Below, one piece after another: positions 17,231-39,319 of a DNA stretch of 64,000 nt (its first letter is position 1; the number at the start of each line of letters is the position of its first letter). The position numbers and the translations under genes are program-made. The stretch spans positions 1-64,000 of the forward strand of contig NZ_JASITA010000037.1 of the NCBI RefSeq assembly GCF_030063415.1, given 5' to 3'. Source of the stretch: Streptomyces sp. H27-C3. Lineage in GTDB: Bacteria; Actinomycetota; Actinomycetes; Streptomycetales; Streptomycetaceae. A model generated the notes under the pieces. It did not search any database, was not told the DNA's origin, and worked only from the letters and a program-made list of their open reading frames with translations.

Positions 17231-17244
17231 GGGCCGTTCGGCCC
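17231..17244. promoter_or_regulatory. Candidate OsdR box GGGCCG-TT-CGGCCC
   Basis: A perfect 14-bp palindrome lies between the arcC remnant stop and the pflA remnant. It matches the consensus GGGCCG-NN-CGGCCC drawn from the other sites in this island. It probably once controlled the now broken pflA-side genes. The regulator assignment is inference. Confidence 0.55.
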
Positions 17245-17251
17245 CAGCACG

Positions 17252-17505
17252 TCAGTCGATGATCGGACCGGGGCGGACGAGCGTGCCCGACCTTCCGTGG
17301 ACGATCTCGTACGCCTCGTCGAGGGCGCCGATCGCGGCCAGGCCTCCGGTGCGTTCGACGAACCGGGCGGCGGCCTCGGCCTTGTGCCCCATCGAACCGT
17401 CGGGGAAACCGCCCCGGCGCAGCTCTGCGGAGGTGGCGCCGAGGACGGGCCGCTGGTCGGGGGTGCCGTAGTCGGCGTAGACGCAGGGGAAGTCGCAGGT
17501 GGGCC
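17252..17505 (-). pseudogene. arcC: C-terminal fragment of carbamate kinase
   Basis: The minus strand encodes VYADYGTPDQRPVLGATSAE, LRRGGFPDGSMGHKAEAAA, RFVERTGGLAAIGALDEAY and EIVHGRSGTLVRPG, then a proper stop at 17252. F-P-x-GSM-G-x-K-x-EAA-x-RFVE and AAIG-x-L are the C-terminal signature of carbamate kinase, which makes ATP from carbamoyl phosphate. About 80 codons remain of roughly 310, and the 5' part is replaced by a sensor-kinase fragment on the other strand. Confidence 0.78.
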
Positions 17506-17514
17506 GGGCTCGGC

Positions 17515-18110
17515 CCGGTGGTCGCGGTCCCTCTCGGCGCGGGAGGCAAGGCCCGTGGTGTGCTCCTGCTGGGGCGCGTGACGGGCCGCACGCCGTTCGT
17601 CGACGCCGACACCGGCCCCCTGCTCGGTTTCGCTGGGCAGGCGGCGCTGGAGCTGGAGCTGGCCGAGCGGCGCCGTGACGCGGACCAGATCGTCCTGCTC
17701 CAGGACCGTGACCGGATCGCGCGCGATCTGCACGACCTGGCGATCCAGCGGCTCTTCGCGGCCGGTATGACCCTGCAGAGCACCCAGCGCTTCGTGGATC
17801 ACCCCAAGGCTGTGGAACGGCTGTCGCGGACCGTCGACGACCTGGACGACACCATCAAGATCATTCGGTCGACCATCTTCGGTCTGCGTACGCACGCCGG
17901 CGGGGCGAAGGGAGACAGCGGTCTGCGTGGTCGGGTGTCCGAGGTGATGAAGGCCTCGGCCGCCTCGTTCGGCTTCGCGCCCGCGCTGCGGATCGAGGGT
18001 CTCGCCGACACCGAGGTCGACGATGACATCGCCGACCACGCGCTCGCGGTGCTGGGCGAGGCGCTCAGCAATACGGCCCGGCACTCCGGGGCGCGGTCCG
18101 TGGACGTCCC
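17515..18110 (+). pseudogene. Truncated OsdK/DevS-like sensor kinase
   Basis: The frame carries the end of a GAF domain (VAVPLGAGGKARGVLLLGR), then the HisKA_3 region RDRIARDLHDLAIQRLFAAG with its phospho-accepting His. After TVDDLDDTIKIIRSTIFGL it reaches the start of the ATPase domain (LGEALSNTARHSGA). It stops matching at about 18110, where an inverted universal-stress-protein start begins, so the N, G1 and G2 boxes of the ATPase are missing. The N-terminal GAF domains are also gone. It is closely similar to the intact kinase at 31012-32766. Confidence 0.85.
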
Positions 18111-18197
18111 CCGGCGCATCGCCTCGTGCGCCGCCCAATCCGCAGCGGCGAGGGCGTGATCTGTTCCATCCAGTCCTACGGTGATCGTCCCAGGCAT
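18108..18197 (-). pseudogene. 5' fragment of a universal stress protein gene
   Basis: The minus strand from the ATG at 18197 encodes MPGTITVGLDGTDHALAAAD, WAAHEAMRRG: the start of a UspA-type domain (G-x-DGS/T and AAxWAAxEA). It ends after about 30 codons exactly where the truncated sensor kinase from the other strand stops. It looks like a recombination joint of two genes. Confidence 0.7.
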
Positions 18198-18497
18198 GTC
18201 GCCTCCAAGTGGTGCCGTCGCGGTGAGCATGTGCGACGGACTTACGACCTCACCCACGATTGGCAGCGGCGTCGCGGCGCCTGGGACTCCGCCTCCGGCC
18301 TGCGGCCAGCTGTACACATCTGCGCGCCCGTCGGACAAGGCCTGTGCCTGCGCCTCACCGGTCGAGGTCGGGGCCATCGACAACTCGCACCAACGAAACA
18401 CGGGCTCGCCTGCTCGCATACGACTCCTCGCGTACCGCGCCCGGTCGCCGAACGGCTGTGAGCGCTTCCCCCGGCGTCCCGAGACAGCCCGCAGCGG

Positions 18498-18671
18498 CCT
18501 GGTGCCCGAGCTGCGGGCCGTCCAGGCCGCCGAGGGCAGTTGCGCGTTCACTTCCGGATGCGCCGGACGGTTCGAGATCGCGGTCTCCGGGTCCGGTCTG
18601 TCGCCGATCGACATAGAACTCACCGACCGTTCGATCTCAGTGAACCCCGGGGAAACATGTCTTCTGCCTCG
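18498..18671 (+). pseudogene. C-terminal fragment of a second GH65 gene
   Basis: The plus strand encodes VHFRM and, after a small shift, GRFEIAVSGSGLSPIDIELT, DRSISVNPGETCLLP. This parallels the end of the GH65 gene at 26820-26930 (GQLEITVPVSDQSPIAIELA, GRTVSVKPGETC). It is therefore the last 50 or so codons of another family 65 glycoside phosphorylase. The 18198-18497 stretch before it shows no recognisable coding sequence. Confidence 0.72.
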
Positions 18672-18837
18672 CCAGGGCACTGGCTTCGGGCACCGTGGTG
18701 CGGGCCACGACTGCGAAACCCACCCGCTCTGTCGCACACCGGCCTCGACAACACGCCGAATGCCGGGATCCGCCGGGATCTGCTTGTCCTCCCAGCCGAT
18801 CCGGGCCGTTCCGGGACCAGCAACGGCATCCAGCCAC

Positions 18838-18878
18838 CGGCCGAACGGCCCGCAGCTCACATCCGGGCCGTTCGGACC
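18838..18878. promoter_or_regulatory. Pair of candidate OsdR boxes before the universal stress protein gene
   Basis: CGGCCGAACGGCCC at 18838-18851 and GGGCCGTTCGGACC at 18865-18878 are centred 27 bp apart, about 100 bp before the ATG of the universal stress protein gene. A degenerate third copy lies at 18803-18818. Clustering of like palindromes ahead of a stress gene is what a DevR/OsdR-controlled promoter would show. The regulator is inferred. Confidence 0.55.
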
Positions 18879-18969
18879 GTAGAAGGGCCCTGGCGGCCCC
18901 TGGCCCATTCGCCTGGCGCAAGTGAGTGTGTTGGCCAGGAAGACAAGCGACCAAGCAGGAGGTACCCCC

Positions 18970-19869
18970 ATGGCTCGTGCCGTGACCGTTGGGATCGACG
19001 GCTCTCCCGAGAGCCTGGCTGCCGCGCGCTGGGCGGCGACAGAGTCCGTGCTCCGCAGCGTTCCGCTCCATCTCGTGCACGCTTGGGAATGGTCTCCGGC
19101 CCCCTCCGCTTCCGTCCCGACCACCGAGACGCAGCGCCATTGGGCGGGGCGCATCCTGCGTGCGGCCGTGGAGCAGCTCGGCAAGAGCAACCCGGAGCTT
19201 CAGCCGACCAGCGAGCAGATCTCCGAGTCACCCGTCGCCGCCCTCCTGGCAGCGTCCGAGAATTCCGAGATACTCGTCCTCGGATCCCGCGGCTTGAGTG
19301 CAATGAGCGGATTCGTGACTGGCTCGGTAGCCCTGCGAGTGGTCGCCCAAGCTCCGCGGCCGGTCGGACTCGTACGATCCGAGGGGCGTACCGCCGTGCA
19401 CTCCCCTCCCCGCGCACTCCGGCCGACCGGCGCTTCGGGCAGCTCCGACGTCGTGGTCGGTGTCGACCTCGCCCATTCCTGCGACGAGGTGATGGGATTC
19501 GCCTTCGAAGCTGCCCGTGTGCGCGGCGTGGGGCTGCACGTCGTGCACGGCTACACACTGCCGTCGTCCTACGCGATCGCCGCAGGCGCGGGCACGGTGA
19601 TCGACGATTCCTGGTTGGCCAGGGAACGCGAGTACGCGCTGAGCACGGCCGTGGATCCGTGGCGCGACAAGAACCCTGACGTGGCTGTCCGCGCAAGCAG
19701 TGTTCTGGGTCAGCCCGTCGCCCATCTGGTCGAAGAGTCAGTTGGTGCGCCGATGCTGGTCATCGGCCGACGCGAGCGAACCTCTCCGCTCGGAATGCAC
19801 CTGGGATCTGTGGCTCACGGCGTGATGCATCATGCCGCCTGCCCAGTGGCTGTCGTGCCCCACAGCTAA
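18970..19869 (+). CDS. Universal stress protein, tandem UspA domains
   Basis: 299 residues; the ATG at 18970 has AGGAGG seven bases upstream. Two UspA-type alpha/beta domains are present. Domain 1 is about 1-137 (VTVGIDGSPES at the start, then ILVLGSRGLSAMSGFVTGSV as nucleotide loop). Domain 2 is about 155-299 (VVVGVDLAHSCDEVM and VIGRRERTSPLGMHLGSV near the end). The G-x2-G-x9-G-S/T loops suggest ATP binding. Tandem Usp proteins are core members of the DosR/OsdR regulons. It appears intact, in contrast to the two broken copies nearby, and has candidate OsdR boxes upstream. Confidence 0.92.
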   Translation: MARAVTVGIDGSPESLAAARWAATESVLRSVPLHLVHAWEWSPAPSASVPTTETQRHWAGRILRAAVEQLGKSNPELQPTSEQISESPVAALLAASENSEILVLGSRGLSAMSGFVTGSVALRVVAQAPRPVGLVRSEGRTAVHSPPRALRPTGASGSSDVVVGVDLAHSCDEVMGFAFEAARVRGVGLHVVHGYTLPSSYAIAAGAGTVIDDSWLAREREYALSTAVDPWRDKNPDVAVRASSVLGQPVAHLVEESVGAPMLVIGRRERTSPLGMHLGSVAHGVMHHAACPVAVVPHS

Positions 19870-20177: not shown

Positions 20178-20903
20178 ATGTCGGAGAATCCACTGCGAGG
20201 CGATGCTGATCCCGGGCCGCCTTTCACAGGCAGCGACATCGGCCGAAGGGTGGCCGCCCGGCGTGAGCAGCTCGGGCTTACCCGTGAGGAGGTGGCGGAG
20301 CGCGCGGGATCAGCACCCGGATATCTCCAGTACTTGGAGGAACGGTCGGCCAACCCAGGCATCGGGTTCCTCCTGAGGCTGGCCAATGCGCTGCAGACGA
20401 CGGTCGCCGAACTGAGCGGCGAAACCGTTGATCTGCCGCCCGGCACCGGTCGCGCCGCCTACCACCCCGAACTGCTGGAGCTGAGCCGCGACGAATGCCG
20501 CGCCCTGCTGGGAACCCACGGCGTGGGCAGGGTTGCGGTGACCACATCGGAAGGCCCCGCCGTCGTTCCTGTCAACTACCTTGTCACCGACGATGACGTG
20601 GCTTTCCGAACGGCCCCCGGCGCAGCCCCGGCGGCCGCGGCCGGCAACGAAGTCGCGTTCGAGGTGGATCACATCGACGATGCGCTGAGTCAGGGCTGGA
20701 GTGTCCTGGTGGTCGGTGAGGCGCGTGCGGTCACGGACCCCGTTGCTGCCCAGGTTCTGGATGAGATGGCACGCAGCACACCGTGGGCCGGCGGAGACCG
20801 AGCTCTGTGGATCACTATCACGCCCGTCCGTGTCACCGGGCGCAGGATCGCTGTGCGGCAGACCCACGTCACGCCCGAAGCCGGACGCCTCGGGGACGAA
20901 TGA
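20178..20903 (+). CDS. XRE-family HTH fused to a pyridoxamine 5'-phosphate oxidase-like domain
   Basis: 241 residues; the ATG at 20178 has GGAAAGGA about 10 bases upstream. Residues 20-78 form an XRE helix-turn-helix (IGRRVAARREQLGLTREEVA, then ANPGIGFLLRLANAL). Residues 95-230 form a split-barrel flavin-binding domain (LGTHGVGRVAVTTSEGPAVV, PVNYLV, GWSVLVVGEARAV). Such fusions occur in actinobacterial dormancy regulons; the barrel may sense a flavin, F420 or haem cofactor and the HTH would bind DNA. It stands directly before the response regulator gene and may be co-regulated with it, but the 126-base gap holds a candidate OsdR box. Confidence 0.9.
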   Translation: MSENPLRGDADPGPPFTGSDIGRRVAARREQLGLTREEVAERAGSAPGYLQYLEERSANPGIGFLLRLANALQTTVAELSGETVDLPPGTGRAAYHPELLELSRDECRALLGTHGVGRVAVTTSEGPAVVPVNYLVTDDDVAFRTAPGAAPAAAAGNEVAFEVDHIDDALSQGWSVLVVGEARAVTDPVAAQVLDEMARSTPWAGGDRALWITITPVRVTGRRIAVRQTHVTPEAGRLGDE

Positions 20904-20943
20904 CAGCCGCCGCGGCGGACGAGAGTCACCCTGCATTCCACGG

Positions 20944-20957
20944 GGCCCATCCGGCCC
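20944..20957. promoter_or_regulatory. Candidate OsdR box in the leader of the first response regulator
   Basis: GGCCCA-TC-CGGCCC, with one half-site exact, lies 72 bp before the ATG at 21030. The same 14 bases and the following CTGGTGCGG recur at 28846 before the second response regulator, so the motif was duplicated with the gene. It may mediate autoregulation. Confidence 0.5.
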
Positions 20958-21029
20958 TGGTGCGGCCCAGGGCAACGGGCAAGGATGGAACCACAGGGCA
21001 GGGTGCTCGTCACACTGCGGAGGACGCCC

Positions 21030-21725
21030 ATGACCGAGGACACGGAAGTTTCACCGCGGAAGCCGATTCGTGTGTTCCTGCTCGACGACCACGAGATCGT
21101 CCGGCGCGGGGTGAGTGACCTGCTCGACGCGGAGCCCGACATCGAAGTCGTCGGCGAGGCGGGGACGACAGAGCAGGCACTCGTCAGAGGACCGGCCCTG
21201 CGTCCTGATGTCGCGGTGTTGGATGCACGGCTGCCCAAGGGCGACGGGATCACGGTCTGCCGAGAGCTTCGGTCGAGGATGCCGGACCTGGCTTGCCTGA
21301 TATTGACGTCTTTCGACGACGACGACGCGCTCCTCGACGCAATCATGGCGGGGGCCGCAGGCTATGTGCTGAAGGAGATCAAAGGGTCCGCGCTGGTGAC
21401 CGCCGTCCGCGAAGTCGCCTCCGGCCAGCCGATGCTCGACCCACCGACCACGCCCCGTCTGATGAGCAGCCTCCGCGGCGACGGCTCTACGCGGCGCACC
21501 GAATCAGGCGCCCTGTCCGGGCTCTCCGTCCGCGAACGGGAGATCCTCGATCTCATCGGAGAGGGACTGGCCAACCCCCAGATCGGCAAACGGCTCTACC
21601 TGTCCGAGAAGACGGTCAAGAACAACGTCTCCCGACTGCTCGCCAAGCTGGGCTTCGGTCACCGCATCCAGACAGCGGTCCTGGCCACCCAGGCTGTTCC
21701 GCAGGCCGGTCAGCAGGGCCGCTGA
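21030..21725 (+). CDS. LuxR/NarL response regulator, OsdR/DevR-like (copy 1)
   Basis: 231 residues; the start ATG at 21030 has CGGAGG six bases upstream. The receiver domain (11-125) shows LLDDHE with the acidic pair and phospho-acceptor Asp65 (VLDARLPKGDG), then TSFDDDD and the conserved Lys in VLKEIKG. The C-terminal LuxR helix-turn-helix spans about 160-225 ([40 protein letters not shown]). It resembles DevR/DosR and OsdR, which control hypoxia and dormancy genes after phosphorylation by a GAF sensor kinase. A near-identical copy lies 8 kb downstream. The only intact cognate kinase is at 31012-32766. Confidence 0.93.
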   Translation: MTEDTEVSPRKPIRVFLLDDHEIVRRGVSDLLDAEPDIEVVGEAGTTEQALVRGPALRPDVAVLDARLPKGDGITVCRELRSRMPDLACLILTSFDDDDALLDAIMAGAAGYVLKEIKGSALVTAVREVASGQPMLDPPTTPRLMSSLRGDGSTRRTESGALSGLSVREREILDLIGEGLANPQIGKRLYLSEKTVKNNVSRLLAKLGFGHRIQTAVLATQAVPQAGQQGR

Positions 21726-21804
21726 AGCGGAGGAGCGTACGCGCGCATCCGGGGCGGACGGAGACTGAGCGATCATGAGTACGTGCAGGATGCCGCGCGG
21801 CGCT

Positions 21805-22462: not shown

Positions 22463-22479
22463 CGATCACCTCACTCCTT

Positions 22480-23208
22480 TCACAGCTTTCGCATCCAGTC
22501 TTCGCCGATACTTCGTGAACCCAGCTCGGCCGGCTGCACGTGTGAGTCGTCCAGGCGATAGGTGAGTTGGTCGACGACTGCGACGACACCGTCGATTTGG
22601 CTCGCCATGCGCAGTGCGATCGGCTTCTCGCTCATACGTTCCACCTGGCCCCTCAGCGTGACCACACCGTCCTTCACGTCCACGGCCACCGTCTGAGGAG
22701 CCAGCCACAGCGTGTCGACCATCACCTCGTCGACGACCGCGCGTCTGATCTCCTGGTCGGGACGCAGGAACACCTGGAGAAGATCGCGTCGTGTGACGAT
22801 GCCGACCAGACGGTCTTCCTCGTCCAGCACGGGAAGCCGTTCTATGCGGCGTTGCACCATTGTCCGCGCGGCGTCCCCGATGGTGATGTCGGCGCGGACG
22901 GTGACTGCCGGAGTCGACATCAGGGATCCGGCGCTCCGGGCATGTGCTTTCGCCCTGTCCTTTCGGGCCCCGGGGCGCAGCCGCGTCAGCCACGCATGAG
23001 CGAAACCGTCCGGTTCCGACGCTTCGGCCTGTCGGAGCACGAGGTCGGTCTCGGAGATGACGCCAATGACCTTCTCATCGTCGTCAATCACTGGAAGGCC
23101 GCTGATGCGATGTACAGCTAGCAGCCTGGCGACCTCCTTGAACGGGGTGTCGAACTGGGCCGTGACGACATCGCTCACCATTACAGTTCCGGTCTTTGCG
23201 TGTCGCAT
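22480..23208 (-). CDS. CBS-CBS-BON domain protein
   Basis: 242 residues with the ATG at 23208. Two CBS domains bind adenine nucleotides: about 8-66 (VSDVVTAQFDTPFKEVARLL, HRISGLPVIDDDEKVIGVIS) and about 92-150 (MSTPAVTVRADITIGDAART, IERLPVLDEEDRLVGIVTRRDL). A BON domain spans about 165-232 (VAVDVKDGVVTLRGQVERMS). Proteins of this layout recur in actinobacterial dormancy regulons and are thought to sense energy charge. It heads a two-gene unit with the flavodoxin. A perfect candidate OsdR box lies about 230 bases upstream. A shortened relative is at 38412-38732. Confidence 0.92.
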   Translation of the reverse strand: MRHAKTGTVMVSDVVTAQFDTPFKEVARLLAVHRISGLPVIDDDEKVIGVISETDLVLRQAEASEPDGFAHAWLTRLRPGARKDRAKAHARSAGSLMSTPAVTVRADITIGDAARTMVQRRIERLPVLDEEDRLVGIVTRRDLLQVFLRPDQEIRRAVVDEVMVDTLWLAPQTVAVDVKDGVVTLRGQVERMSEKPIALRMASQIDGVVAVVDQLTYRLDDSHVQPAELGSRSIGEDWMRKL

Positions 23209-23618
23209 GTCGGTGTCTCCGTCCTTCGGCGCAATTGGTCGTCGCTCCACGCCCCTGCATACGCCCGGAATCAGCCGGACATACGCCTCCAGGGCGGTGA
23301 GACCACCGAGCCGTGTCACGGTTGAGGGAGGCAAGTCGCTGCCGATTGAAGCGGATCACTCACCGCGCAGGACCGGGGGTTCGCCACCAGCCTCCGCCCG
23401 CCAGGGGCCCTGCCCCAGGGGCTACCGGGGTACAGGGCGGGGCCGACCGGCCCTCGTCGGCTCCGCAGGGCCGAACGTCCCTCCGCCGGGGCTGGTCCGC
23501 CCCTCCTCCGTTCGCCCCCTAGGTGTAACGATGCCGGCGGGAACCCTTCCCGGGCGATCCATCAAAAGCCAGCTCACTGTCAGGACCTGACTGCACGACC
23601 AAAGGGAGAGTGGACGCA
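23209..23618. promoter_or_regulatory. Divergent regulatory region with a perfect candidate OsdR box
   Basis: 410 bases between the CBS-BON start (minus) and the GAPDH stub (plus). GGGCCG-AC-CGGCCC at 23440-23453 is an exact copy of the island palindrome and sits centrally, so it could serve both directions. AAAGGGAGAG at about 23600-23609 is the ribosome site of the stub. No gene is seen inside the region. Confidence 0.55.
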
Positions 23619-23732
23619 ATGACCGTACAAATAGGAATCAACGGATTCGGCCCCGTCTGCCGCACCTACCTGCGCGACGGGCCTTGCGTCCGGCTACTCG
23701 ATCTCACCACGCTGACGGCTGAACGACAGTGA
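23619..23732 (+). pseudogene. Start of a glyceraldehyde-3-phosphate dehydrogenase gene, 37 codons
   Basis: The peptide begins MTVQIGINGFGPVCRTYL, the NAD-binding start of GAPDH (V-x-IGINGFGRIGR-x-x-R) with two substitutions, then loses similarity and stops at 23732. It keeps a ribosome site, and its TGA overlaps the GTG of the next gene (GTGA). The rest of GAPDH has been deleted. It may survive as an upstream coupling peptide for the phosphatase gene, which is inference. Confidence 0.75.
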
Positions 23733-24532
23733 CCGCCGGTATGCGGCGATCCGGAGCCGCCCGCAGCAGCCTCGTCCCCCGGCTGAGCGCAGTCCGGGCC
23801 GTCGTCCTCGACACTGACGGAGTGATCACCGACTCCGCACGGGTACACGCAGCCGCCTGGAAGAGAGCCTTCGACGCATGCCTGCGCGACCACCCGCCCG
23901 CGGACCGGCGACAGCGCGGGCCGTTCGACGCTCAGGCGGACTATCTGCGATACGTCGACGGCAGGCCCCGGCTGGACGGGGCCACCTCTTTCCTTGTCAG
24001 CCGCGGCGTGGCAGTGCCGGCCGGCACCCGCGCAGACGCACCCGGGACGGGCACAGTCGGCGCGGTGGCCTCCCTGAAGGAACAGTTCTACGTCGAACGG
24101 CTGCGCGGACCGGGCATCGCGGCCTATCCAGGGTCCGTGCGTCTGTTGCGTACCCTGCGTAGCGCGAGCATCCCACTCGCTGCCGCCTCGGCGTCCCACC
24201 ACGCCAGAGAAGTCCTCACGCGTGCCGGGGTCCTGGACCTCTTCGACGAGCTGGTGGACGGTGCCGAAGCCGCTGATCTGGGTCTTCCCGGCAAGCCGGA
24301 CCCTGCCTTGTTCCTCGAAGCCGCCCGGCGGCTGAAGACTCCGGCCGACCGCACAGCAATCGTCGAGGATGCACTGGCAGGTGTGGAGGCCGGCCGGCGT
24401 GGCGGATTCGGCCTGGTCATCGGCGTGGACCGGACCGCCGGCCCGGGCACCGCAGAAGACCTGCTGCGGCACGGCGCAGACATGGTCGTACGCGACTTGG
24501 CAGAGCTACTCGTCCCCCAACCCAAGGGCTGA
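23729..24532 (+). CDS. HAD-family hydrolase, beta-phosphoglucomutase-like
   Basis: 267 residues starting with GTG at 23729. HAD motif I is VVLDTDGVITDSARVHAAAW (about 26-45) with Asp-x-Asp; motif II is the Ser of AAASASHHA; motif III and IV are KPDPALFLEAA and IVEDALAGVEAG. The cap domain between motifs I and II is of the phosphoglucomutase type. Adjacent to a GH65 phosphorylase, it would convert the beta-glucose-1-phosphate released from a disaccharide to glucose-6-phosphate. It is 2 bases from the GH65 ATG, so the pair is coupled. It appears intact even though its partner is interrupted. Confidence 0.9.
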   Translation: MTAGMRRSGAARSSLVPRLSAVRAVVLDTDGVITDSARVHAAAWKRAFDACLRDHPPADRRQRGPFDAQADYLRYVDGRPRLDGATSFLVSRGVAVPAGTRADAPGTGTVGAVASLKEQFYVERLRGPGIAAYPGSVRLLRTLRSASIPLAAASASHHAREVLTRAGVLDLFDELVDGAEAADLGLPGKPDPALFLEAARRLKTPADRTAIVEDALAGVEAGRRGGFGLVIGVDRTAGPGTAEDLLRHGADMVVRDLAELLVPQPKG

Positions 24533-24534
24533 CC

Positions 24535-26934
24535 ATGTCGAACTGGACCTGGGAATACGACGGTTACGACTCCGCCGAAGAGTGTCTTCGAGAGTCGCTG
24601 TGCACCCTCGGCAATGGTTACTTCGCCACTCGCGGCGCCGCTCCGGAATGCACAGCGGATACGACGCACTATCCAGGCACTTACGCCGCCGGCTGTTACA
24701 ACCGGCTGATGTCGGACGTGGCAGGACGGCAGATCGAGAACGAGGACATGGTCAACCTGCCCAATTGGCTGTCCTTCCGCTTCCGAATCCGCGACGACGA
24801 TGACGAAGGCACAGGAGAGTGGTTCACGCCGGACAGCGTCGCGCTGGTGGAGCACCACCAGGCTCTCGACCTGCGCTCGGGCACGCTGGAGCGCACGGCG
24901 ACCTACGCGGACCGGCGGGGGCGTCGACTGTCCGTACGCCAGCTGCGCCTGGTCCATATGACAGACCCCCACCTGGCCGCCCTGCGTACGGAATTCACCG
25001 CTGAGGGATGGTCCGGCGGGCTCGACGTCGAGTCCGCAATCGACGCGGCGGTCACCAACTCCGGCGTCGCCCGCTACCGGCAGCTGAACGGTCAGCACCT
25101 CACCGACATCCGCCCGGGCGGCTCCGGCTTCGACTCTGTGTGGCTGTCCTGCCGCACCAGCACGTCGGACATCCATGTCGCCATGGCGGCCCGCACCACC
25201 GCCGACGTGGTGCTGGGTCCTGCCCGCACCGACCACACGCCGGCGCGTGCCTCTCAAATCCTTCGGCTGACGATCGCTCCGGGGCACACGGTAGTGGTCG
25301 ACAAGACGGTGGCCCTGCACACCTCGCGTGATCCGGCGATCGGTGACGCGCTGAGGGCTGCGATCGACCGGGTGAAGGCGGCTCCGCGATTCGAGGAGCT
25401 GCTGCTGTCCCATCAAAGTGCCTGGCAGCAGCTGTGGCTCAGAGCCGGCACCGAGGTCCCTGGAGAGGCGGGGCACATCTTGCGGCTGCATCAGTTCCAC
25501 GTTCTGCAGACCTTGTCGCCGCACACCGCAGACCTCGACGTCGGTGTCCCGGCGCGGGGCCTGCATGGCGAGGCATACCGCGGCCATGTGTTCTGGGACG
25601 AGCTCTTCGTCCTCCCCTATCTCAACCTCCACTTCCCAGCGGTGTCCCGGGGTCTGCTCACCTATCGCCACCGACGTCTCGACCAAGCCCGCCGCGCGGC
25701 GCGTGAGGCGGGACGGGCCGGCGCCATGTATCCCTGACAGAGCGGCAGCGACGGCCGCGAGGAGACCCAGGAAGTGCATCTCAACCCGCGCTCCGGACGC
25801 TGGCTGCCCGATCATTCCCGGCTGCAGCACCACGTCGGATCCGCCGTCGCGTACAACGTGTGGCAGTACTGTCAGGCGAGCGGTGACTCCGAGTTCCTGC
25901 GCACCAAAGGCGCTGAGATGCTGCTGCAGATCTCGCGTTTCTGGTCGGACGCGGCCACCTACGACGATGCCCTGGGCCGCTATCGGATCCGCGGTGTGGT
26001 GGGACCCGACGAGTACCACGACGCCTATCCCGGCACTGCGGCGGCGGGTCTGGACGACAATACGTACACCAATGTCACCGCTGCCTGGGTGCTCGCTCAC
26101 ACCCTTGACGTCCTGGAGGCACTTCCTCAACCGTGCCGACGCGAGCTGTTCGAGCGCACCGGCCTGGAGGACAGGGAACTCGCCCGGTGGGACGATGTCT
26201 CCCGCCGCCTCCATGTGCCCTTCCACGCGGGTGTCGTCAGTCAATTCGAGGGTTACGGAGACCTCGCTGAACTCGACTGGGACGCCTATCGGGCCCGCTA
26301 CGGGGACATTCGCCGTCTCGACCGGATCCTGGAGGCCGAAGGCGACACGGCCAACCGCTACCAGGCATCAAAACAGGCCGACGTCCTGATGCTCGGGTAC
26401 CTCTTCTCGCCGGGCGAGATGCGCACCCTCTTCCAGCGCCTGGGGTACGACATGGACGACACCCTCTGGCAGCGGACCGTCGACTACTACCTGCGCCGCA
26501 CCAGCCACGGCTCGACACTGAGCGGGCTCGTCCACGGGTGGGTTCTGGCCCGAGTCCGCCCGACTCAGGCATGGGCGTACTGCAAGGAAGCCCTGGAAGG
26601 AGACATCGCCGACCTCCAGGGCGGAACCACCGGCGAAGGGATCCATCTCGGAGCGATGGCCGGCACCCTCGACCTGGTACAACGCGGCCTGTCCGGACTG
26701 CAGACACGTAACGACGGGCTGTATCTCGACCCGGTACCGCTGCCGGAGCTCTCCGCCTACGGTTTCTCCTTGCGCTACAGGGGGCATTGGGGCGTTCAGT
26801 TCCGGATGAGTCCCGGACAGCTTGAGATCACGGTCCCAGTCTCGGACCAGTCTCCGATCGCCATCGAACTCGCAGGTCGGACTGTCTCGGTGAAGCCCGG
26901 AGAAACATGCCGGCTCGTACTTCCGGAGCGCTGA
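24535..26934 (+). pseudogene. GH65 disaccharide phosphorylase interrupted by one TGA codon
   Basis: The full reading frame would give 799 residues, the normal length for trehalose/kojibiose/maltose phosphorylases. The N-terminal domain starts MSNWTWEYDGYDSAEECLRE and TLGNGYFATRG. The (alpha/alpha)6 barrel has HVFWDELFVLPYLNLHFP, and the catalytic Glu lies in VVGPDEYHDAYPGT. At codon 401 (25735-25737) a TGA stands in GAMYP-stop-QSGSDGREETQ, where the family has Trp (YPWQSGSDGREET). No other damage is seen on either side. A GTG at 25774 could restart translation of the catalytic part, but without a clear ribosome site. It is a very recent nonsense mutation or a sequencing difference. Confidence 0.85.
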
Positions 26935-28082: not shown

Positions 28083-28845
28083 TCAGCCGACTATGTCGAG
28101 GATCTCCTGGACCGGTCGCCGCGGAGTCGCGGAGCCGAGGGGGCCGAATCCCAGGCGGAGCACCATCTGTACGTGACCCATTGCCGACTGCGGGTCCCTC
28201 ACCGCCCAACGAAGTTGTGGCCACTCAAGGGCGTGGGAGGTCAGGGATGTGGCCAGTCCCTGGAGCGCGGCCTCGAGCAGTACACGTTCCATCGCCTGCC
28301 CCGCGTCCAGCCAGTCCCGCTCGCCGTCTCTGGGCGTCCCGAGCAGCGCAAGCTGCGGTGACTGCTCGAAGACGGCCGCGCGACGACCGGGCGCGGGGCG
28401 TCCGGCCGCGAAGTCTCGGACCGGGGCGCGGCCGTCCCACCGCCGCGGCCCCAATGCGTAGTCGGAGATCCCTCCGTCCTCAAGGCGCCATCCCCGGCGC
28501 CGCCACGAGTCCAGCGGGCCGTCTCCCGTCGTACGTGAAGGGCCGCCCGCTCTCGATCCTCGGCATCGTCCACCAGGTCCAGAACTGACTGCACATGCCA
28601 CGGGTCAGGGAAGGCCAGCTGTGCACCCTCGGCGGCAGCCGCTCTGCGCAGCTTGTCGCGGACGTCCTCGGGGACGGCTTCGTCCGTGAACGGCACACGG
28701 CTGGTGTGCCGACGGCGGATCGCGGGATACAGCCGCGCAAGACTCTCCTCGGCCCGCTCCGGCTCGACGAGTCGCACATCGGCGAGGAGCTCAGGATCGG
28801 CGGGATCGGGCAGCAAGACCGGCCGATGCCTCCCCGCCTGCGAGG
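28083..28845 (-). pseudogene. Truncated and frameshifted Acg-like nitroreductase
   Basis: The minus strand reads [40 protein letters not shown] and [17 protein letters not shown]. After one frame change near 28500 it reads ISDYALGPRRWDGRAPVRDF, QLALLGTPRDGERDWLDAGQ, AMERVLLEAALQGLATSLTS and AVRDPQSAMGHVQMVLRLGF. This is the Acg/nitroreductase-like family of dormancy regulons (FMN-binding fold). About 100 N-terminal codons are missing. The break falls directly at the leader of the second response regulator. Confidence 0.82.
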
Positions 28846-28859
28846 GGCCCATCCGGCCC
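28846..28859. promoter_or_regulatory. Candidate OsdR box in the leader of the second response regulator
   Basis: The 14-mer GGCCCA-TC-CGGCCC and the following CTGGTGCGG are identical to the copy at 20944. It lies 75 bp before the ATG at 28934, and the nitroreductase remnant begins immediately to its left. Confidence 0.5.
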
Positions 28860-28933
28860 TGGTGCGGTCACGGGCAGACGGGCAAAGATGGGATATCAGG
28901 GCGGAGGCACTTGTGACAGCGTGGAGGATGGCC

Positions 28934-29632
28934 ATGACCGAGGACCGAGGCGCTTCCTCGCAGAAGCCGATTCGAGTATTCCTGCTCGACGATCACGAGG
29001 TCGTTCGGCGCGGGCTGAACGACCTGCTCGATGCGGAGTCCGATATCGATGTCGTCGGTGAGGCGGGTACGGCGGATCAAGCCCTCGCCAGAGGCCCGGC
29101 ACTGCGCCCGGATGTCGCCGTACTGGATGTGCGCCTGCCGGACGGCGACGGGATCACGGTCTGCCGGGAACTGAGGTCGAGAATGCCGGATCTGGCATGT
29201 CTGATGCTGACCTCGTTCGACGACGACGACGCACTCCTCGACGCGATCATGGCCGGGGCTGCGGGCTATGTGCTGAAGGAGATCAAGGGGACTGCGCTTG
29301 TTGCCGCCATCCGCACGGTCGCCTCCGGCCAGTCGATGCTCGACCCGGCAACCACAACCCGCCTGATGAGCAGTCTCCGCTGCGACGCCCGCACGGAGGA
29401 CGCCAACCAAGGTGCCCTGTCAGCGCTCTCCGCTCGCGAGCGAGAGATTCTCGATCTGATCGGAGAGGGACTGACCAACTCCCAGATCGGAAAGCGGCTC
29501 TACCTGTCGGAGAAGACGGTCAAGAACAACATCTCGCGCCTCCTCGCCAAGCTCGGCGTCGAACGGCGTGTTCAGGCCGCGGTCCTGGCCACGCAGGACG
29601 TTTCGTCGGCCCGCGCACAGCGCGACCACTGA
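28934..29632 (+). CDS. LuxR/NarL response regulator, OsdR/DevR-like (copy 2)
   Basis: 232 residues; of two in-frame ATGs the one at 28934 has GGAGG six bases upstream, the same spacing as copy 1, so it is preferred over 28928. The receiver domain has LLDDHE, Asp65 in [11 protein letters not shown] and the Lys of VLKEIKG. The LuxR domain has [20 protein letters not shown] and [13 protein letters not shown]. It differs from copy 1 mainly in the linker and the last 20 residues. Both copies keep every catalytic and DNA-contact position I can judge, so both look functional. Gene duplication included the promoter leader. Confidence 0.93.
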
Positions 29633-31011: not shown

Positions 31012-32766
31012 TCAGCCGTTGACGGCCGGGAGAGGGACGCGCCAGTCCACGACGGTGCCGGTGGGCTGGTTGGCAGCGAGGGTGAAGGTGCCGCCAAGTT
31101 CCGTGGCACGGGAGTAGAGGTTGGCCAGGCCGCTGCCGTGAGCTCGGGCGGAGCCTGTACCGCAGCCGTTGTCGGCCACCCGTAACCGCAGGTGCGCCGT
31201 GGTGACCTCTGCGGTGACCTCCACCGAGGTGGCGTGGGCGTGCCGAGCGGCATTCGCCAGAGCTTCGCGGAGTACAGCGAGCAGGTGATCGGCCATGGTG
31301 TGGGAGACGAGGGTGTCCAGCAAGCCGGTCGTGCGCAGAGCCGGGGCGAAGCCCAACCCCTCGGCGGCCAGGCCTGACTCGGCCACCAGGCGGGAGCGCA
31401 GGCCGGTGTCCTCGGGGCGGCCCTGCTGCTGCAGGGCGTAGATGGTGGAGCGGATCACCTTGATCGTGTCGTCGAGATCGTCAACGACACGTGCAATGCG
31501 TTCGGAGACCCGCGGGCGGTCGGCTACCTGGCCAAGGGTGGACTGCAGGGACAGACCGCTGGCGAACAGACGCTGGATGGCCAGGTCGTGCAGGTCGCGG
31601 GCGATGCGGTCGCGGTCGGTCAGAACGAGCAGCCGTTCGGCGTCACGGCGGTGCCCGGCAATCTCCAGGGCAAGCGCGGCATGGTTGGCGAATCCTGCGA
31701 TCATGGCAACGGTCGCCTCGGCGAAGGCGGGACATCCCTGGAGGCCAGCGACCTGCAGGACGCCGCGCACATGCTCTGGCGTGCCCAGGGGGACCAGAAA
31801 GGCCGGTCCCAGGGGCGTGCGAGCGGTGTCCTGTTCGGCACGCGGATCGGAGTTCCAGTCCTCGGTGGTGATCGTCTCGCCGGAGGTGTACACCTTCCTC
31901 GCCAAGCCGGCGTCCGACAGCACCAGTCCGCGGGCGTGGTCGGCGTCCTGGCCGGCGGCGGCCTCGATGAGAAGGTTGCCGTTGCGCGACGCGGGCACGG
32001 CGAGGGTGACCGAGTCGGCGCCGGCCATTTCAAGAACGGTGGCGGTGAAGGAATCCAGGACCTCGCCCGGGTCGGTGCCGGACAGCAGAGCACGAGTCAG
32101 TTCGCTGCTGGCCAGCAGCCAGCGTTCACGGCGCTGGACGGCGTCGTACAGGCGGGCATTGTCGACAGCCACCCCGGCCGCCGCCGCCAGCGTGGTCAGC
32201 ACGGCCTCGTCATCGGCGTCGAACTCCGCCCCGCCCCGCTTCTCTGTCAGGTAGAGATTCCCGAACACCTTCTCGCGCACCCGCACGGGGGCGCCGAGAA
32301 AGGTCCGCATGGGCGGATGGCCCGCCGGGAAGCCGGAGGCCTCGGGGTGCTGGCCCAGATCCACCAGCCTCAGCGAGTGCGGCTCACGGATCAGGAGTCC
32401 CAGAATGCCTCCGCCCTGCGGCGAGGGACCGATCTGCGCGATGGTCTCCTCGTCCATCCCGACCGTGATGAACTGACGGAGCCCGCTCTCCTCGCCGATC
32501 ACACCCAGCGCCCCGTACCGGGCATCGACCAGTGTGACCGCGGACTGCACGAGCTGCCGCAGCACCACAGCCAGGTCCAGCTCGCTACCAACGGCCAGAA
32601 CCGCCTCCAGTAGCGCAGGCACCCGGTCCCGCGGCGAGTTCACCTGCGCGACCTGCGACTGCAGGTCCTCCAACAGCTCGTCCAACCGCAGCTGTGACGC
32701 CCCGGCCCCGGTAGTGCCCTCTTCGTCCGAGTCCTCATCAAACCTTGCTCCCCAGACCGCCAACAC
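31012..32766 (-). CDS. GAF-GAF sensor histidine kinase, OsdK/DevS-like
   Basis: 584 residues starting with GTG at 32766 behind AAGGGA. GAF domain A covers about 60-208 and contains AGHPPMRTFLGAPVRVRE with His150; the same motif holds the proximal haem ligand (His149) of mycobacterial DosS/DevS. GAF domain B covers about 225-372. HisKA_3 follows with DRIARDLHDLAIQRLFASG (phospho-acceptor His393) and an ATPase domain with LREALANAARHAHA, VADNGCG and a C-terminal GGTFTLAANQPTGTVV. No membrane helix, so it is a cytosolic sensor, probably of oxygen, NO or redox state. It is the only intact kinase in the island and must serve the two response regulators. Confidence 0.93.
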   Translation of the reverse strand: MLAVWGARFDEDSDEEGTTGAGASQLRLDELLEDLQSQVAQVNSPRDRVPALLEAVLAVGSELDLAVVLRQLVQSAVTLVDARYGALGVIGEESGLRQFITVGMDEETIAQIGPSPQGGGILGLLIREPHSLRLVDLGQHPEASGFPAGHPPMRTFLGAPVRVREKVFGNLYLTEKRGGAEFDADDEAVLTTLAAAAGVAVDNARLYDAVQRRERWLLASSELTRALLSGTDPGEVLDSFTATVLEMAGADSVTLAVPASRNGNLLIEAAAGQDADHARGLVLSDAGLARKVYTSGETITTEDWNSDPRAEQDTARTPLGPAFLVPLGTPEHVRGVLQVAGLQGCPAFAEATVAMIAGFANHAALALEIAGHRRDAERLLVLTDRDRIARDLHDLAIQRLFASGLSLQSTLGQVADRPRVSERIARVVDDLDDTIKVIRSTIYALQQQGRPEDTGLRSRLVAESGLAAEGLGFAPALRTTGLLDTLVSHTMADHLLAVLREALANAARHAHATSVEVTAEVTTAHLRLRVADNGCGTGSARAHGSGLANLYSRATELGGTFTLAANQPTGTVVDWRVPLPAVNG

Positions 32767-33016: not shown

Positions 33017-35623
33017 CTACCGCGCCTGGCGCCGGCCTGGTTCTGCCGCCGCGCCTCGCGGTGCACCCTTGGGGCGCACCCGGCGCTGCAATCGCATCGC
33101 CACATATCCGAGAGCGGACAGCGCACACGCGATCAGCAGTTCGGTGAACCCCAGTGGCTCCGTACCGAGCAGGGCTCGCAGCGGCGGAAGGTACACGCCT
33201 GCGATCTGCAGGCCCATAGCTCCTGCCACGGCGAACAGAAGGAACGGATTGGCCAGGGTGCCGGGACGTACCCGGGAGCCGAGGGCCACGCCGAGCTGGG
33301 TCGCGCCCAGCACCAGGAAGAGCATGGACTGCCATGGTCGGCCGGTCTCGTGGGCCCAGATCGCGGCTACGAGTGCGGTTGTGGCGACGACCACTCCCAT
33401 GGCCAGGATCCGGGGCCACAGGCCGGCCCCCAGCACGCTCTGTTCCGGCGGTCGCGGAGGGCTGCGCATCACGTCGGGATCGACGGGCTCGGCACCGAGT
33501 GCGACACCGGGCAGGCCGTGGGTGAGGAGGTTGATCCACAGGATCTGCGCGGGCAGGAGTGGCAGTGGCATACCCAGGAAGGGACCGATGAGCATGACCA
33601 AGATCTCCGCAGTGCCGCCGGCCAGCGCGTACAGCAGGAACCGGCGCACATTGGCATAGACACGGCGCCCCTCTTCGACAGCTGATACGACGGAGGCCAA
33701 GTCGTCGTCGGCGAGCACCAAGTCAGCTGCCTGCCGCGCGACTTCGGTGCCGCGGCGGCCCATGGCGACGCCAATATCGGCCCGGCTCAGGGCAGGTCCG
33801 TCATTGACGCCGTCCCCCGTCATCGCCACGACGTGCCCGGCCTCGCGCCAGGCCTGAATGATGTCGAGCTTCTGCTCGGGGCTGGTACGCGCGAAGATCC
33901 GCGCACTCGTCAGTTCGCCCGCAGTGCCCTGCCGGATCTGGTCACCGGTGATGACGTCATCGTGGGCGTCGGCGATTCCGAGACGCTCGGCGACCGCAAG
34001 CGCCGTCAGCGGGTGGTCGCCGGTGATGAGTAGAGGGATGATACCGGCGTCACGGCAGGCGGCGACGGCCGCCGCCGCTTGGCTCCGGGGCGGGTCCACG
34101 ATAGCGACGAGGCCAAGCAGCGACAGACCTGTCTCCCAGCTCTCCCGGTTCTCGGGCAACGCATCACGTTCGGCCGTCGCGACGGCCAGCATCCGGTATC
34201 CGCGGCCGGCCAGTGCTTCCGCGCGGGCCGCAGCACGCTCCAGGATTTCCGGGTCGTCGTCCAACAGGGAAGCAACGAGCAGGGTTTCCGGTGCTCCCTT
34301 GCACACCAGACGGATCCCCCCGTCAGACCTCCTGTGTACGGTCGTCATGCGCTTGCGGTCACTGTCGAAGGGGATCTCGTCCACCCGGGGCAGCCGATGG
34401 TCGAGGACGGACCGGTTCAATCCGAGCTTGGCGCCCGCCGCGAGCAGAGCAGCCTCGGTGGGATCACCCAGCGCGAGCCAGGCATCGTCCTCGTCGGTCG
34501 ACTGCCGCACGCTCGCGTCGTTGCACAACATTGCGGCGCTGAGCAGTTTGGTCAGATCAGGCGCACTGTCTGTGACCATGGCCGTGCCATCGCGCACGAT
34601 GCGCCCGTCCGGCGCGTACCCGGTACCTGTGACCACCGCCTCACCCTGAGGTGTCCACAGCTGCTCGACGACCATCCGGCCCTCGGTCAGAGTCCCGGTC
34701 TTGTCCGTGGCTATGACGGTCACCGAACCCAACGTCTCCACCGCGGGCAGCCGCCGGACGATGGCGTGCCGCTCAGCCATCCGCCGGGCCCCAAGGGCCA
34801 GGGCCAGCGTCACGACGGCGGGCAGCGACTCGGGTACAGCGGCGACAGCGAGGCTGATCGCGGCCACCACCATGAGTTCCAGCGGCTGCCCCCGCACGAG
34901 TCCAAGAGCGAGCACCAGGGCACACAAGGCGACGGTGACCGCCGCCAGCATCCGGCCGAAGGACGCAAGACGGTGCTGCAGCGGGGTCAGGCCGGGAGCG
35001 GTGCCGAGCAACGACGCGATGCGGCCCGTCGCGCTGTGTGCCCCGGTGGCAGTGATCAGCACACGACCGCGGCCCCGCACGACAACCGTGCCTGATGCCA
35101 CCGTGCCATGCGCCTCGTCGCCGCCGGTGGTCTTCTCCACCGGCACCGACTCGCCCGTCAGCGAGGACTCATCCACGAGCAGTGCCGCCGCGTCCACCAC
35201 GTTGCCGTCTGCGGGGACGATGTCACCCTCCCCCAACAGCACCAAGTCACCCGGCACCACCTCTGACGACGCGAGGTGTTCCTCTTCACCGTCACGCACC
35301 ACCCGTGCCGCGGGCGCGCTCAGCGCCGTCAGGGCGGCAACCGCCTGCTCCGCCCGCATCTCCTGTGCCACGCCCACGGCAGTGTTCGCGATGATCACGA
35401 CCAGAATGACGACGGCGTCGGGCAGGTCCCCCGTGATGATCGTCAGCGCGGCGGCCACCAAGAGCACCAGGATCAGCGGATCCCGCAACTGTTGAAGCAC
35501 GCGCCGCCACATGGGGGTGCGTGGCTGGGCCGCGACTGCGTTGGGGCCATGCTCGACGAGCCGTCGGGCGGCCTCTCCCCGCGCCAGTCCCGCCGCCGCA
35601 GTCACGATCTGGTCCGTACTCAC
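33017..35623 (-). CDS. P-type cation-transporting ATPase (CtpF/Ca2+-ATPase-like)
   Basis: 868 residues; start GTG at 35623 with GGAGG six bases upstream, preferred over an adjacent TTG. All P-type landmarks are present: actuator LTGES, PESLPA in helix 4 (in place of PEGLP), phosphorylation site ATDKTGTLTEG near residue 308, nucleotide domain KGAPETLL, and MTGDGVNDGPAL. About ten helices, with six in the C-terminal half. The arrangement is that of P2-type (SERCA/PMR1-like) pumps such as CtpF of Mycobacterium, a member of the DosR regulon. The extreme C-terminus is basic. A candidate OsdR box lies 70 bases upstream. Cation specificity cannot be fixed from sequence alone. Confidence 0.93.
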   Translation of the reverse strand: MSTDQIVTAAAGLARGEAARRLVEHGPNAVAAQPRTPMWRRVLQQLRDPLILVLLVAAALTIITGDLPDAVVILVVIIANTAVGVAQEMRAEQAVAALTALSAPAARVVRDGEEEHLASSEVVPGDLVLLGEGDIVPADGNVVDAAALLVDESSLTGESVPVEKTTGGDEAHGTVASGTVVVRGRGRVLITATGAHSATGRIASLLGTAPGLTPLQHRLASFGRMLAAVTVALCALVLALGLVRGQPLELMVVAAISLAVAAVPESLPAVVTLALALGARRMAERHAIVRRLPAVETLGSVTVIATDKTGTLTEGRMVVEQLWTPQGEAVVTGTGYAPDGRIVRDGTAMVTDSAPDLTKLLSAAMLCNDASVRQSTDEDDAWLALGDPTEAALLAAGAKLGLNRSVLDHRLPRVDEIPFDSDRKRMTTVHRRSDGGIRLVCKGAPETLLVASLLDDDPEILERAAARAEALAGRGYRMLAVATAERDALPENRESWETGLSLLGLVAIVDPPRSQAAAAVAACRDAGIIPLLITGDHPLTALAVAERLGIADAHDDVITGDQIRQGTAGELTSARIFARTSPEQKLDIIQAWREAGHVVAMTGDGVNDGPALSRADIGVAMGRRGTEVARQAADLVLADDDLASVVSAVEEGRRVYANVRRFLLYALAGGTAEILVMLIGPFLGMPLPLLPAQILWINLLTHGLPGVALGAEPVDPDVMRSPPRPPEQSVLGAGLWPRILAMGVVVATTALVAAIWAHETGRPWQSMLFLVLGATQLGVALGSRVRPGTLANPFLLFAVAGAMGLQIAGVYLPPLRALLGTEPLGFTELLIACALSALGYVAMRLQRRVRPKGAPRGAAAEPGRRQAR

Positions 35624-35692
35624 CAACAGCCTCCAAGAGCCCCAGCATGGTCGCTCCCTCGCGACGCTACGCAGAGCGTTGGAGGCGTGACA

Positions 35693-35706
35693 GGGCCGAC
35701 CGGGCC
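35693..35706. promoter_or_regulatory. Candidate OsdR box before the P-type ATPase
   Basis: GGGCCG-AC-CGGGCC matches the island palindrome at 13 of 14 positions. It lies 70 bases before the GTG at 35623, in the 196-base gap after the phosphoketolase stop. Confidence 0.5.
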
Positions 35707-35819
35707 ACTCCCTGCCGGAATGCGGCGCTTCGTGTACGTCCCGCAGCTCAACAGGGCCGCGATTGTCGGCGGATGCCGGGGGATCGGCCGGAATCGGCAG
35801 TCACGACGGCGGCGGTCAG

Positions 35820-38243: not shown

Positions 38244-38411
38244 GAAGAGCCCTCTCCGAAGGTCTTTGAGTCGCTCGGTCGATCCATGGTCCGGTGCTTC
38301 GCTGCCCGCAAGTGGTGACGGCCGGTTACGGCGCCCTTGGGGTGATCGGCGTGATCAGCAGCTTTCCGAGTTCGTGACCCACCGGGTCGGCGAGGAGCAG
38401 GCGAAAGCCAC

Positions 38412-38732
38412 TTACGCTGCTCCCGCCAGTTCGTTGCCTTCCTGGCTCGGCGTCCAGTCGACGTCCACGACGCCGGGCACTGCACGGACCAGGCGGGCCG
38501 CGATCGGCAGCAGCCGGGTGTCGGTGAGGTCGCTGTCGCGGAACTCCTCCTTGGGGAGCGGGTCCGCCTCGGATACGACGCCGATGACTCGGCTTTCGGT
38601 GTCGAGGACCGGCAGGGCGCTGACCTTCCACCGGGCCAGGGTCTCGACGATCTCCTCGAACGGTGCGTCCCGAAGTATGGAGACCGCCGGGTGGGACATC
38701 ACGTCGCTGACGAAGCAGGGCGGGCGGTTCAT
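38412..38732 (-). CDS. Shortened CBS-domain protein with a BON-like tail
   Basis: 106 residues; ATG at 38732 with GGAGA about 5 bases upstream. The first 62 residues are one CBS motif set (VSDVMSHPAVSILRDAPFEE, VSALPVLDTESRVIGVVSEA). Where a second CBS domain is expected, the sequence jumps after KEEFRDSDLTD to IAARLVRAVPGVVDVDW, which is the end of a BON domain. Compared with the 242-residue relative at 22480-23208 about 130 residues are missing in frame. The protein may still be made but could not form the usual intramolecular CBS pair. It follows the cyclic-nucleotide-binding gene by 10 bases. Confidence 0.72.
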   Translation of the reverse strand: MNRPPCFVSDVMSHPAVSILRDAPFEEIVETLARWKVSALPVLDTESRVIGVVSEADPLPKEEFRDSDLTDTRLLPIAARLVRAVPGVVDVDWTPSQEGNELAGAA

Positions 38733-38742
38733 CGGTGTCTCC

Positions 38743-39210
38743 TCAGCGCAGATGATGCGTGTTGCCACTGCCGTAGGGTCCGTAAAGGTCAAGCAGTCGC
38801 ACCCGGGTGGCTCGCAGCCGCTGTCCGATCACCTCGGCCACACGGCTGACGAGTGCCTGGCCGAGCTCCGGGTCCTCGGCGCACAGCGCCCGCACCGCCA
38901 TCGCGTCGAATTCAAGCGCCCGCACCTCGGTGGCCGCCTCGGCACCCAGGTGCCAGCTGTACGGAGGAAAGAGCCACGACCAGCCCACCAGGTCTCCCGG
39001 CCCCAGCGACTCGACGACTGCTGCCTGCCGGCCGGGCACGTGCAGGTCCAAATGGACGCTGCCCGTCTGAATGATCCAGAACCGGTCGGCGCGGTGACCC
39101 TCTTCGAAGATCCGTGTGCCTGCCGGGAAAACAGTTTGGCCCGCCAGATCCAGCAGCCGATCGCGGCCTCCGGGCGGCAGAACGTTCAGAATGTCGGTGG
39201 CGCTGATCAT
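38743..39210 (-). CDS. Cyclic nucleotide-binding domain protein (Crp-like sensor without HTH)
   Basis: 155 residues; ATG at 39210 with GGAGG five bases upstream. A single cNMP-binding beta-roll is visible: VFPAGTRIFEEGHRADRFWI, IQTGSVHLDLHVPGRQAAVV and ESLGPGDLVGWSWLFPPYSW. A helix then runs to the end (ELGQALVSRVAEVIGQRLRA). The Crp DNA-binding domain is absent and the end is a natural stop, so it is a sensor or partner subunit and not a classical regulator. It heads an operon with the short CBS gene. A perfect-arm candidate OsdR box lies about 95 bases upstream. Confidence 0.88.
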   Translation of the reverse strand: MISATDILNVLPPGGRDRLLDLAGQTVFPAGTRIFEEGHRADRFWIIQTGSVHLDLHVPGRQAAVVESLGPGDLVGWSWLFPPYSWHLGAEAATEVRALEFDAMAVRALCAEDPELGQALVSRVAEVIGQRLRATRVRLLDLYGPYGSGNTHHLR

Positions 39211-39303
39211 GCTGCCTCCGTTCGCCAGACCACGCCATCCCGCGTGCGGCGCATGGTCTCGCTGTCTCACATTCAACGTAAGCTGCGGCATTTTTCGGCG
39301 GAA

Positions 39304-39319
39304 GGGGCCAAGCGGCCCC
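39304..39319. promoter_or_regulatory. Candidate OsdR box before the cyclic-nucleotide-binding gene
   Basis: GGGGCCAAGCGGCCCC contains GGGCCA-AG-CGGCCC, matching the island palindrome at 13 of 14 positions. It lies between the minus-strand operon start at 39210 and the plus-strand alcohol dehydrogenase remnant, so it could act in either direction. Confidence 0.55.

Follow-up and report, generated by a model that had tools for sequence, protein, structure and literature searches.

For OsdR (SCO0204) of Streptomyces coelicolor, a binding consensus, AGGGCCGATCGGCCCT, has been published together with gel shifts and promoter tests, and three promoters lose activity in an osdR mutant (PMC5069765). 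In Mycobacterium tuberculosis, the related regulator DevR binds cooperatively to several sites per promoter, the proximal site overlaps the −35 element, and two of the seven listed putative −10 elements read ATGATC and AACGAT (PMC3029386, PMC5360333). Here we describe a stress-gene island at 14.5–40.3 kb of a 64,000-nucleotide window of Streptomyces sp. H27-C3 (C59:1-64000; genome of 8.02 Mb in 128 contigs), in which palindromes of the form GGGCCG-NN-CGGCCC stand before genes for two DevR/OsdR-like response regulators (RR1 and RR2) and for stress proteins. Judged from sequence, these palindromes are very probably (roughly 0.85) OsdR/DevR boxes, that is, 16-base-pair (bp) activator sites for dimers of RR1 and/or RR2. 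Motif and regulon are already known, and the island is a further example of them.

As in S. coelicolor, the box is a 16-bp palindrome with GGGCC/GGCCC half-sites, which precedes usp, regulator, CRP-like and other stress genes and is clustered around the regulator gene; unlike there, the island has two regulator genes with a divergent box, GGGCCCATCCGGCCCT, a kinase gene outside their operon, and adjoining gene remnants (PMC5069765). The likeness to M. tuberculosis lies in the proximal site at −35, in the presence of more than one site at some promoters and in the putative −10 elements ATGATC and AACGAT, which resemble hexamers of the island. Half-sites in the island are mostly GGGCC, whereas the mycobacterial DevR half-site is GGGAC; the form GGGAC-N4-GTCCC, to which the original prediction had likened the palindrome, has no copy in the whole window.

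Palindromic boxes of the island

Sites were scored with a matrix built from the 25 published OsdR sites of S. coelicolor Table 1, which are predicted sites rather than footprints and score 11.6–19.0 on it; genes were called with our own GC-frame heuristic and Pfam. The boxes, their −10-like hexamers and the genes concerned are as follows (box scores in brackets).

17230..17245, minus strand: strong OsdR-box-like site (17.0) preceding several gene remnants in a row; neither direction shows a −10-like hexamer at +38/39
18837..18852, plus strand: weak box (11.45) upstream of the universal stress protein gene; GACCGT at +38
18864..18879, plus strand: weak box (11.65) upstream of the same gene, 27 bp from 18837; no −10-like hexamer at +38/39
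18970..19869, plus strand: universal stress protein (Pfam Usp)
20943..20958, plus strand: RR1 promoter box (10.9), a 16-mer identical to the RR2 box
20981..20986, plus strand: RR1 −10-like hexamer AAGGAT, 38 bases from the box start
21030..21725, plus strand: RR1, DevR/OsdR-like response regulator
22480..23208, minus strand: CBS-BON protein, divergently oriented to the box cluster at 23.4 kb
23439..23454, no strand assigned: strong box (19.0)
23467..23482, no strand assigned: best-scoring box of the window (20.5)
23488..23503, plus strand: weak proximal box (9.2), 21 bp past 23467
23527..23532, plus strand: −10-like hexamer AACGAT, 39 bases from the proximal box 23488 and 60 from 23467
23729..24532, plus strand: HAD-family hydrolase gene downstream of the 23.4-kb cluster
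28845..28860, plus strand: RR2 promoter box (10.9), identical to the RR1 box
28884..28889, plus strand: RR2 −10-like hexamer AAAGAT, 39 bases from the box start
28934..29632, plus strand: RR2, DevR/OsdR-like response regulator
31012..32766, minus strand: DevS/DosT-like GAF-GAF-HisKA_3 kinase, candidate partner
33017..35623, minus strand: P-type cation ATPase, predicted start GTG with GGAGG six bases before it
35664..35669, minus strand: ATPase −10-like hexamer TAGCGT, 38 bases from the box start
35692..35707, minus strand: ATPase promoter box (13.7)
38743..39210, minus strand: cyclic-nucleotide-binding-domain protein (cNMP gene), predicted start ATG at 39210 after GGAGG
39275..39280, minus strand: cNMP gene −10-like hexamer TACGTT, 39 bases from the box start
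39304..39319, minus strand: proximal box of the cNMP promoter (8.9)
39326..39341, minus strand: weak distal partner box (6.7), 22 bp from 39304

Eight copies had been listed as exact or near-exact. Two are exact (17231 and 23440), four differ by one base (18838, 18865, 35693 and 39304, the last re-registered to 39305), and two, mutually identical, differ by two (20944 and 28846). That list lacked three sites: a third exact copy at 14161, within the predicted gene 13258–14466; the top-scoring site, AGGGCCGAACGTCCCT at 23467; and the weak site at 23488. For exact copies, the statement that none follow beyond 40 kb is correct; it does not extend to the sites at 47158 (16.2) and 48742 (14.9), the two that score above 14 outside the island, both inside predicted genes, and the sequence at 52403 is GGGCC-N4-GGCCC. 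The placement 70–230 bases before start codons was borne out, with distances from box edge to start of 72 (RR1), 74 (RR2), 69 (ATPase), 94 (cNMP) and 231 (CBS-BON). By score, 23467, 23439, 17230 and 35692 agree with the consensus, lying inside or above the published range, and 18864 lies at its bottom edge.

Enrichment is local to the island

The original prediction was to stand or fall on whether the motif is more frequent in the genome than expected for such GC-rich DNA. Taken literally, that test is failed genome-wide, because the counts match those of reversed controls: 29 exact copies in the genome, against 28 for the control, and 405 of the 16-base form in 61 genomes of the genus, against 441. 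Counts of the pattern over the genome or genus were accordingly rejected as proof of enrichment, every summed control being as high or nearly so; the 16-base form in the window's own genome alone gave 6, against 3 for the control. Enrichment is found locally, in the island only. Eight sites scoring above 10.5 lie there, against 1.10 expected (P = 2e-5) from a 398-kb sample of the same genome, which comprised 20 stretches on 8 of the 128 contigs, chosen non-randomly as long ones from earlier matches. Over nine thresholds P ranged from 7e-4 to 5.5e-6, and above a score of 16 the island has three sites and the 398-kb sample none.

These counts bear on the simplest alternative, that GC-rich palindromes arise by chance in approximately 70% GC DNA and the eye is drawn to those before genes. 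The flat genome and genus totals are what it predicts, the exact copy at 14161 is intragenic, and, where other high-scoring copies of the genome were inspected with their surroundings (20 stretches), 15 of 27 sites above 9 lie inside predicted genes. It is at odds with the island excess, and with three features described below: conservation before DevR-like genes, a fixed distance to the −10-like hexamer and box pairing at 20–23 bp. Overall, chance is disfavoured and highly unlikely as a general account, although it may still apply to 14161, 47158 and 48742, and possibly to 18837/18864.

Conservation in relatives

We compared the island with 80 loci, the best 80 of 543. The species are related to one another and a few names appear twice, and the counts are therefore not independent events; S. 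coelicolor is not among these records. The named regulator relatives are nearly all Streptomyces, with a few Actinacidiphila. The 80 loci contain 168 sites above 16, against a mean of 3.9 (standard deviation 10.4, maximum 142) for up to 200 column-permuted matrices, the high maxima arising because some permutations nearly equal the real matrix.

A box above 12 lies upstream of 68 of 84 response regulator matches, compared with 7.5% of 5,000 random 380-bp stretches from the same loci. Such boxes also precede Usp (61/153), CBS-BON (24/92), second CBS (16/85), cNMP (16/65), PPK2 (15/38), kinase (14/48) and HAD (2/4) matches, as well as 12 of 22 matches of an open reading frame (ORF) taken for a nitroreductase, which has no Pfam match. 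They are infrequent before the second Usp (4/55) and phosphoketolase (2/34), and none was found before flavodoxin (0/8), GH65 (0/8 and 0/9), the kinase remnant (0/48) or ORF39116 (0/18). In these counts, a box scored as upstream may in fact serve a neighbouring divergent gene; starts of PPK2, cNMP, second Usp and ORF39116 were taken from match ends, and these four, the kinase and the kinase remnant were searched over 480 bp, against the 380 bp of the random baseline. Position upstream of DevR-like regulator and stress genes is thus common to the window and its relatives.

Promoter geometry and box pairing

Aligned on their boxes, 74 response regulator promoters (of 75 from the 80 loci and the window, one near-duplicate being dropped) share two blocks, a −35-like TRGTNC (+15 to +20) and one resembling A..GAT (approximately +39 to +43). 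On sequence grounds, this pattern is that of a putative −35 element abutting the box, with a putative −10 element after a 17-bp spacer. Among 64 response regulator promoters with a site above 14, the −10-like hexamer starts at 38 (40 promoters) or 39 (17 promoters) in 57, and at 20–37 in none. The other boxes behave similarly. Of 181 sites above 14 outside regulator promoters, 176 were kept after removal of near-duplicates and of sites too close to a locus end, and in their 352 orientations matches to a matrix built from those −10-like hexamers peak at 38/39 (10 and 14, against a mean of approximately 5 per offset) and again at 59/60 (fractions 0.043 and 0.065, approximately 15 and 23).

The second peak is explained by boxes paired at 20–23 bp. 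Partner boxes of 245 sites number 20, 17, 21 and 8 at 20, 21, 22 and 23 bp, respectively, against 1.05 per bp at 60–79, two partners both above 14 being counted twice. Where the −10 match lies at 58–61, a box above 5 is present at 20–23 in 24 of 53 orientations and at 45–48 in 0 of 53; where it lies at 37–40, the figure for 20–23 is 2 of 33, and in the remaining orientations 47 of 269. A helical periodicity across all spacings was considered and rejected, as only 20–23 and, weakly, 31–32 stand out. The window's spacings of 27–28 bp (18837/18864 and 23439/23467) differ from the preferred pairing. An extension to 20 non-Streptomyces loci gave only 13 sites above 12, too few for pairing, and there the −10 counts peak at offsets 38 and 60 (5 and 4 of 26). 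The main text of PMC5069765, in which paired spacing and −35/−10 geometry were not encountered, has 'cooperativ' once and lacks 'tandem', 'hexamer' and 'transcription start'.

For the window itself, we counted both orientations of ten sites, the eight originally listed together with 23467 and 23488; a site at 24013 (9.3), inside the HAD gene, was not part of this set. The pattern.A...T occurs at 38/39 in 6 of the 20 orientations, with 4.3% expected for each (P = 1.4e-4), and all six face genes: RR1, RR2, the genes at 23.5 kb, the ATPase, cNMP and Usp. The Usp match is doubtful, because GACCGT at +38 of 18837 lies inside the neighbouring box. The eight originally listed sites alone give 5 of 16 orientations (P = 4e-4) and the eight island sites above 10.5 give 4 of 16 (P = 0.004); a hand-chosen set of 13 orientations gave six matches (P = 8e-6), but we rely on the count over all 20. 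On this geometry, even the low-scoring 39304 and 23488 gain support as candidate boxes.

The same geometry bears on what the boxes do. The palindrome had been called a strong candidate OsdR operator, and its identity as an OsdR/DevR box is supported, but the fixed −35/−10 geometry replaces 'operator' with 'activator site'. Repressor operators would suit 18864, and 23439 in the direction of CBS-BON, both of which misfit activator spacing. They would not suit a proximal box that abuts the −35 and stands a 17–18-bp spacer from the −10 at most of the response regulator promoters examined, nor the three S. coelicolor promoters that are less active in the osdR mutant (PMC5069765), and we regard repression as extremely unlikely. 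The least credible alternative is that the boxes act in RNA as hairpins, either terminators or leader structures. They are indeed inverted repeats, mostly in intergenic DNA; against this, the loop would have two bases, the boxes lie upstream of −10-like hexamers at fixed inter-copy spacing, and no T run follows them in the contexts inspected, without folding or a terminator scan.

Regulators and kinase

RR1 and RR2 are 79% identical to each other, and both are DevR-type response regulators with receiver and GerE domains (Pfam). Among solved structures, the best match to either is DevR of M. tuberculosis (3c3w), the two E values being 9.5e-75 and 3.8e-71. In DevR, D54 is the phosphorylated aspartate, and K179, K182 and N183 contact DNA. 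These residues align with 65, 194, 197 and 198 in both proteins, which also keep the EKTVKN segment. Beside the phosphorylated aspartate, RR1 reads LDARLPKGDG, unlike RR2 and DevR, and it may be a diverging duplicate. The kinase has a GAF-A domain like that of DevS/DosT, a second GAF domain, HisKA_3 and HATPase; its GAF domain matches chain 2vzw with E = 4.9e-49 and DevS chains with E = 4e-47 and weaker, and its HPPM segment aligns in the DevS/DosT-type GAF comparison.

The boxes might instead be read by another NarL-family regulator. NarL-family sites can resemble one another, and the genome does have a third DevR-like gene, at C117:82622, 60% identical to RR2. That gene has no box above 12 within approximately 10 kb, which favours RR1/RR2 as the acting regulators, and the boxes cluster around RR1 and RR2, whose own promoters are included. 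We therefore consider it unlikely that a different regulator is responsible.

Taken as OsdR/DevR activator sites, the palindromes also leave several observations that weigh the other way, in addition to the flat genome and genus counts. The sites at 18837, 20943, 28845, 39304 and 23488 score under the published range and do not agree with the consensus by score alone. No −10-like hexamer stands at the expected place, in either direction, at 17230, 18864 and 23439, and at 23467 the sole one lies at the distal distance. Being paralogous, the promoters of RR1 and RR2 do not count as independent cases. In the relatives, a box above 12 is rare upstream of the ATPase (1/12) and of the XRE-pyridoxamine oxidase gene (3/23), and 7 of the 80 loci have no site above 8 in the 300 bp before the response regulator. 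The kinase lies outside any operon with RR1 or RR2, unlike osdR–osdK, and several genes downstream of boxes are remnants.

Proposed mechanism

In the model that we propose, a signal such as low oxygen or nitric oxide would be sensed by the DevS/DosT-like kinase, leading to phosphorylated regulator, and phosphorylated dimers of RR1 and/or RR2 would bind the 16-bp boxes. The centre of the proximal box would lie approximately 42 bp ahead of the start point and the downstream edge of the box would meet the −35, with the −10-like hexamer following after a 17–18-bp spacer. A second box, if present, would mostly lie 20–23 bp away, which is two helical turns, so that two dimers could sit side by side. 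Cooperative filling of the boxes would then recruit RNA polymerase, with the proximal dimer contacting it at −35, and would switch on both regulator genes, the ATPase and cNMP-domain genes and those from 23.6 kb onwards, with Usp as a possible further target.

More tentatively, and at somewhat less than even odds, DevR-type regulons of Streptomyces may share a grammar: a box abutting the −35, a −10 element matching [GCA]A[TCG]GAT at 38–39 and often a second box 20–23 bp away, the stronger box sometimes being the distal one, as at 23467/23488. Where the distal site is strong and the proximal one weak, two dimers would have to cooperate, and the promoter would therefore read the level of phosphorylated regulator as a threshold.

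Remnants in the island and sites elsewhere in the genome

The island appears to have decayed in part around the OsdR box at 17230, which is itself intact. By eye, 16400–18700 holds a carbamate-kinase-like tail and PflA-like, membrane-protein and PPK2 pieces in different frames, and the same run continues with a histidine kinase remnant (HisKA_3, 17518–18159) and a piece like a GH65 tail. Directly after the best box cluster, a 37-residue frame (23619–23732) resembles by eye a truncated N terminus of glyceraldehyde-3-phosphate dehydrogenase. A GH65-family gene at 24535–26934 is split into two frames, one with the N-terminal and one with the catalytic part, possibly by a frameshift or an assembly error. 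The gene preceding RR1 (20178–20903) encodes a helix-turn-helix domain fused to a pyridoxamine 5′-phosphate oxidase domain.

Elsewhere in the genome, the other 12 of the 27 sites above 9 lie outside predicted genes, and three of them have a predicted gene start at most 400 bp downstream: C42:17742, which precedes the gene of an ATP-grasp/CoA-ligase protein by 153 bp and whose −10-like match points away from that gene; one in stretch L091, 353 bp from the predicted start; and position 2540 of stretch L094 (contig C57). This last site scores 11.3; at the distal distance (58–61) it has a strong match to the −10 matrix (12.1), and a weak short frame follows after approximately 178 bp. The site may be another target or a chance match. 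The remaining non-genic places include convergent gene ends and spots beside HNH/recombination-directionality-factor or prim-pol genes. One stretch, L082 (C117:109579), carries two boxes paired at 22 bp (scores 18.4 and 10.5) near HNH and recombination-directionality-factor-like genes, and is perhaps a prophage or an integrative element.

Implications

The island adds a further Streptomyces-type genome to those with a dormancy-type activator regulon. At this GC content, the motif alone is inconspicuous genome-wide, and motif, fixed −10 distance and pairing are informative in combination. The combination yields a working rule for OsdR target prediction and ties the Streptomyces regulons to the mycobacterial ones through promoter layout in addition to the motif. 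If the shared grammar holds, it rather than the palindrome would define the true targets, and regulons could be predicted in GC-rich genomes in which the motif by itself is not enough.

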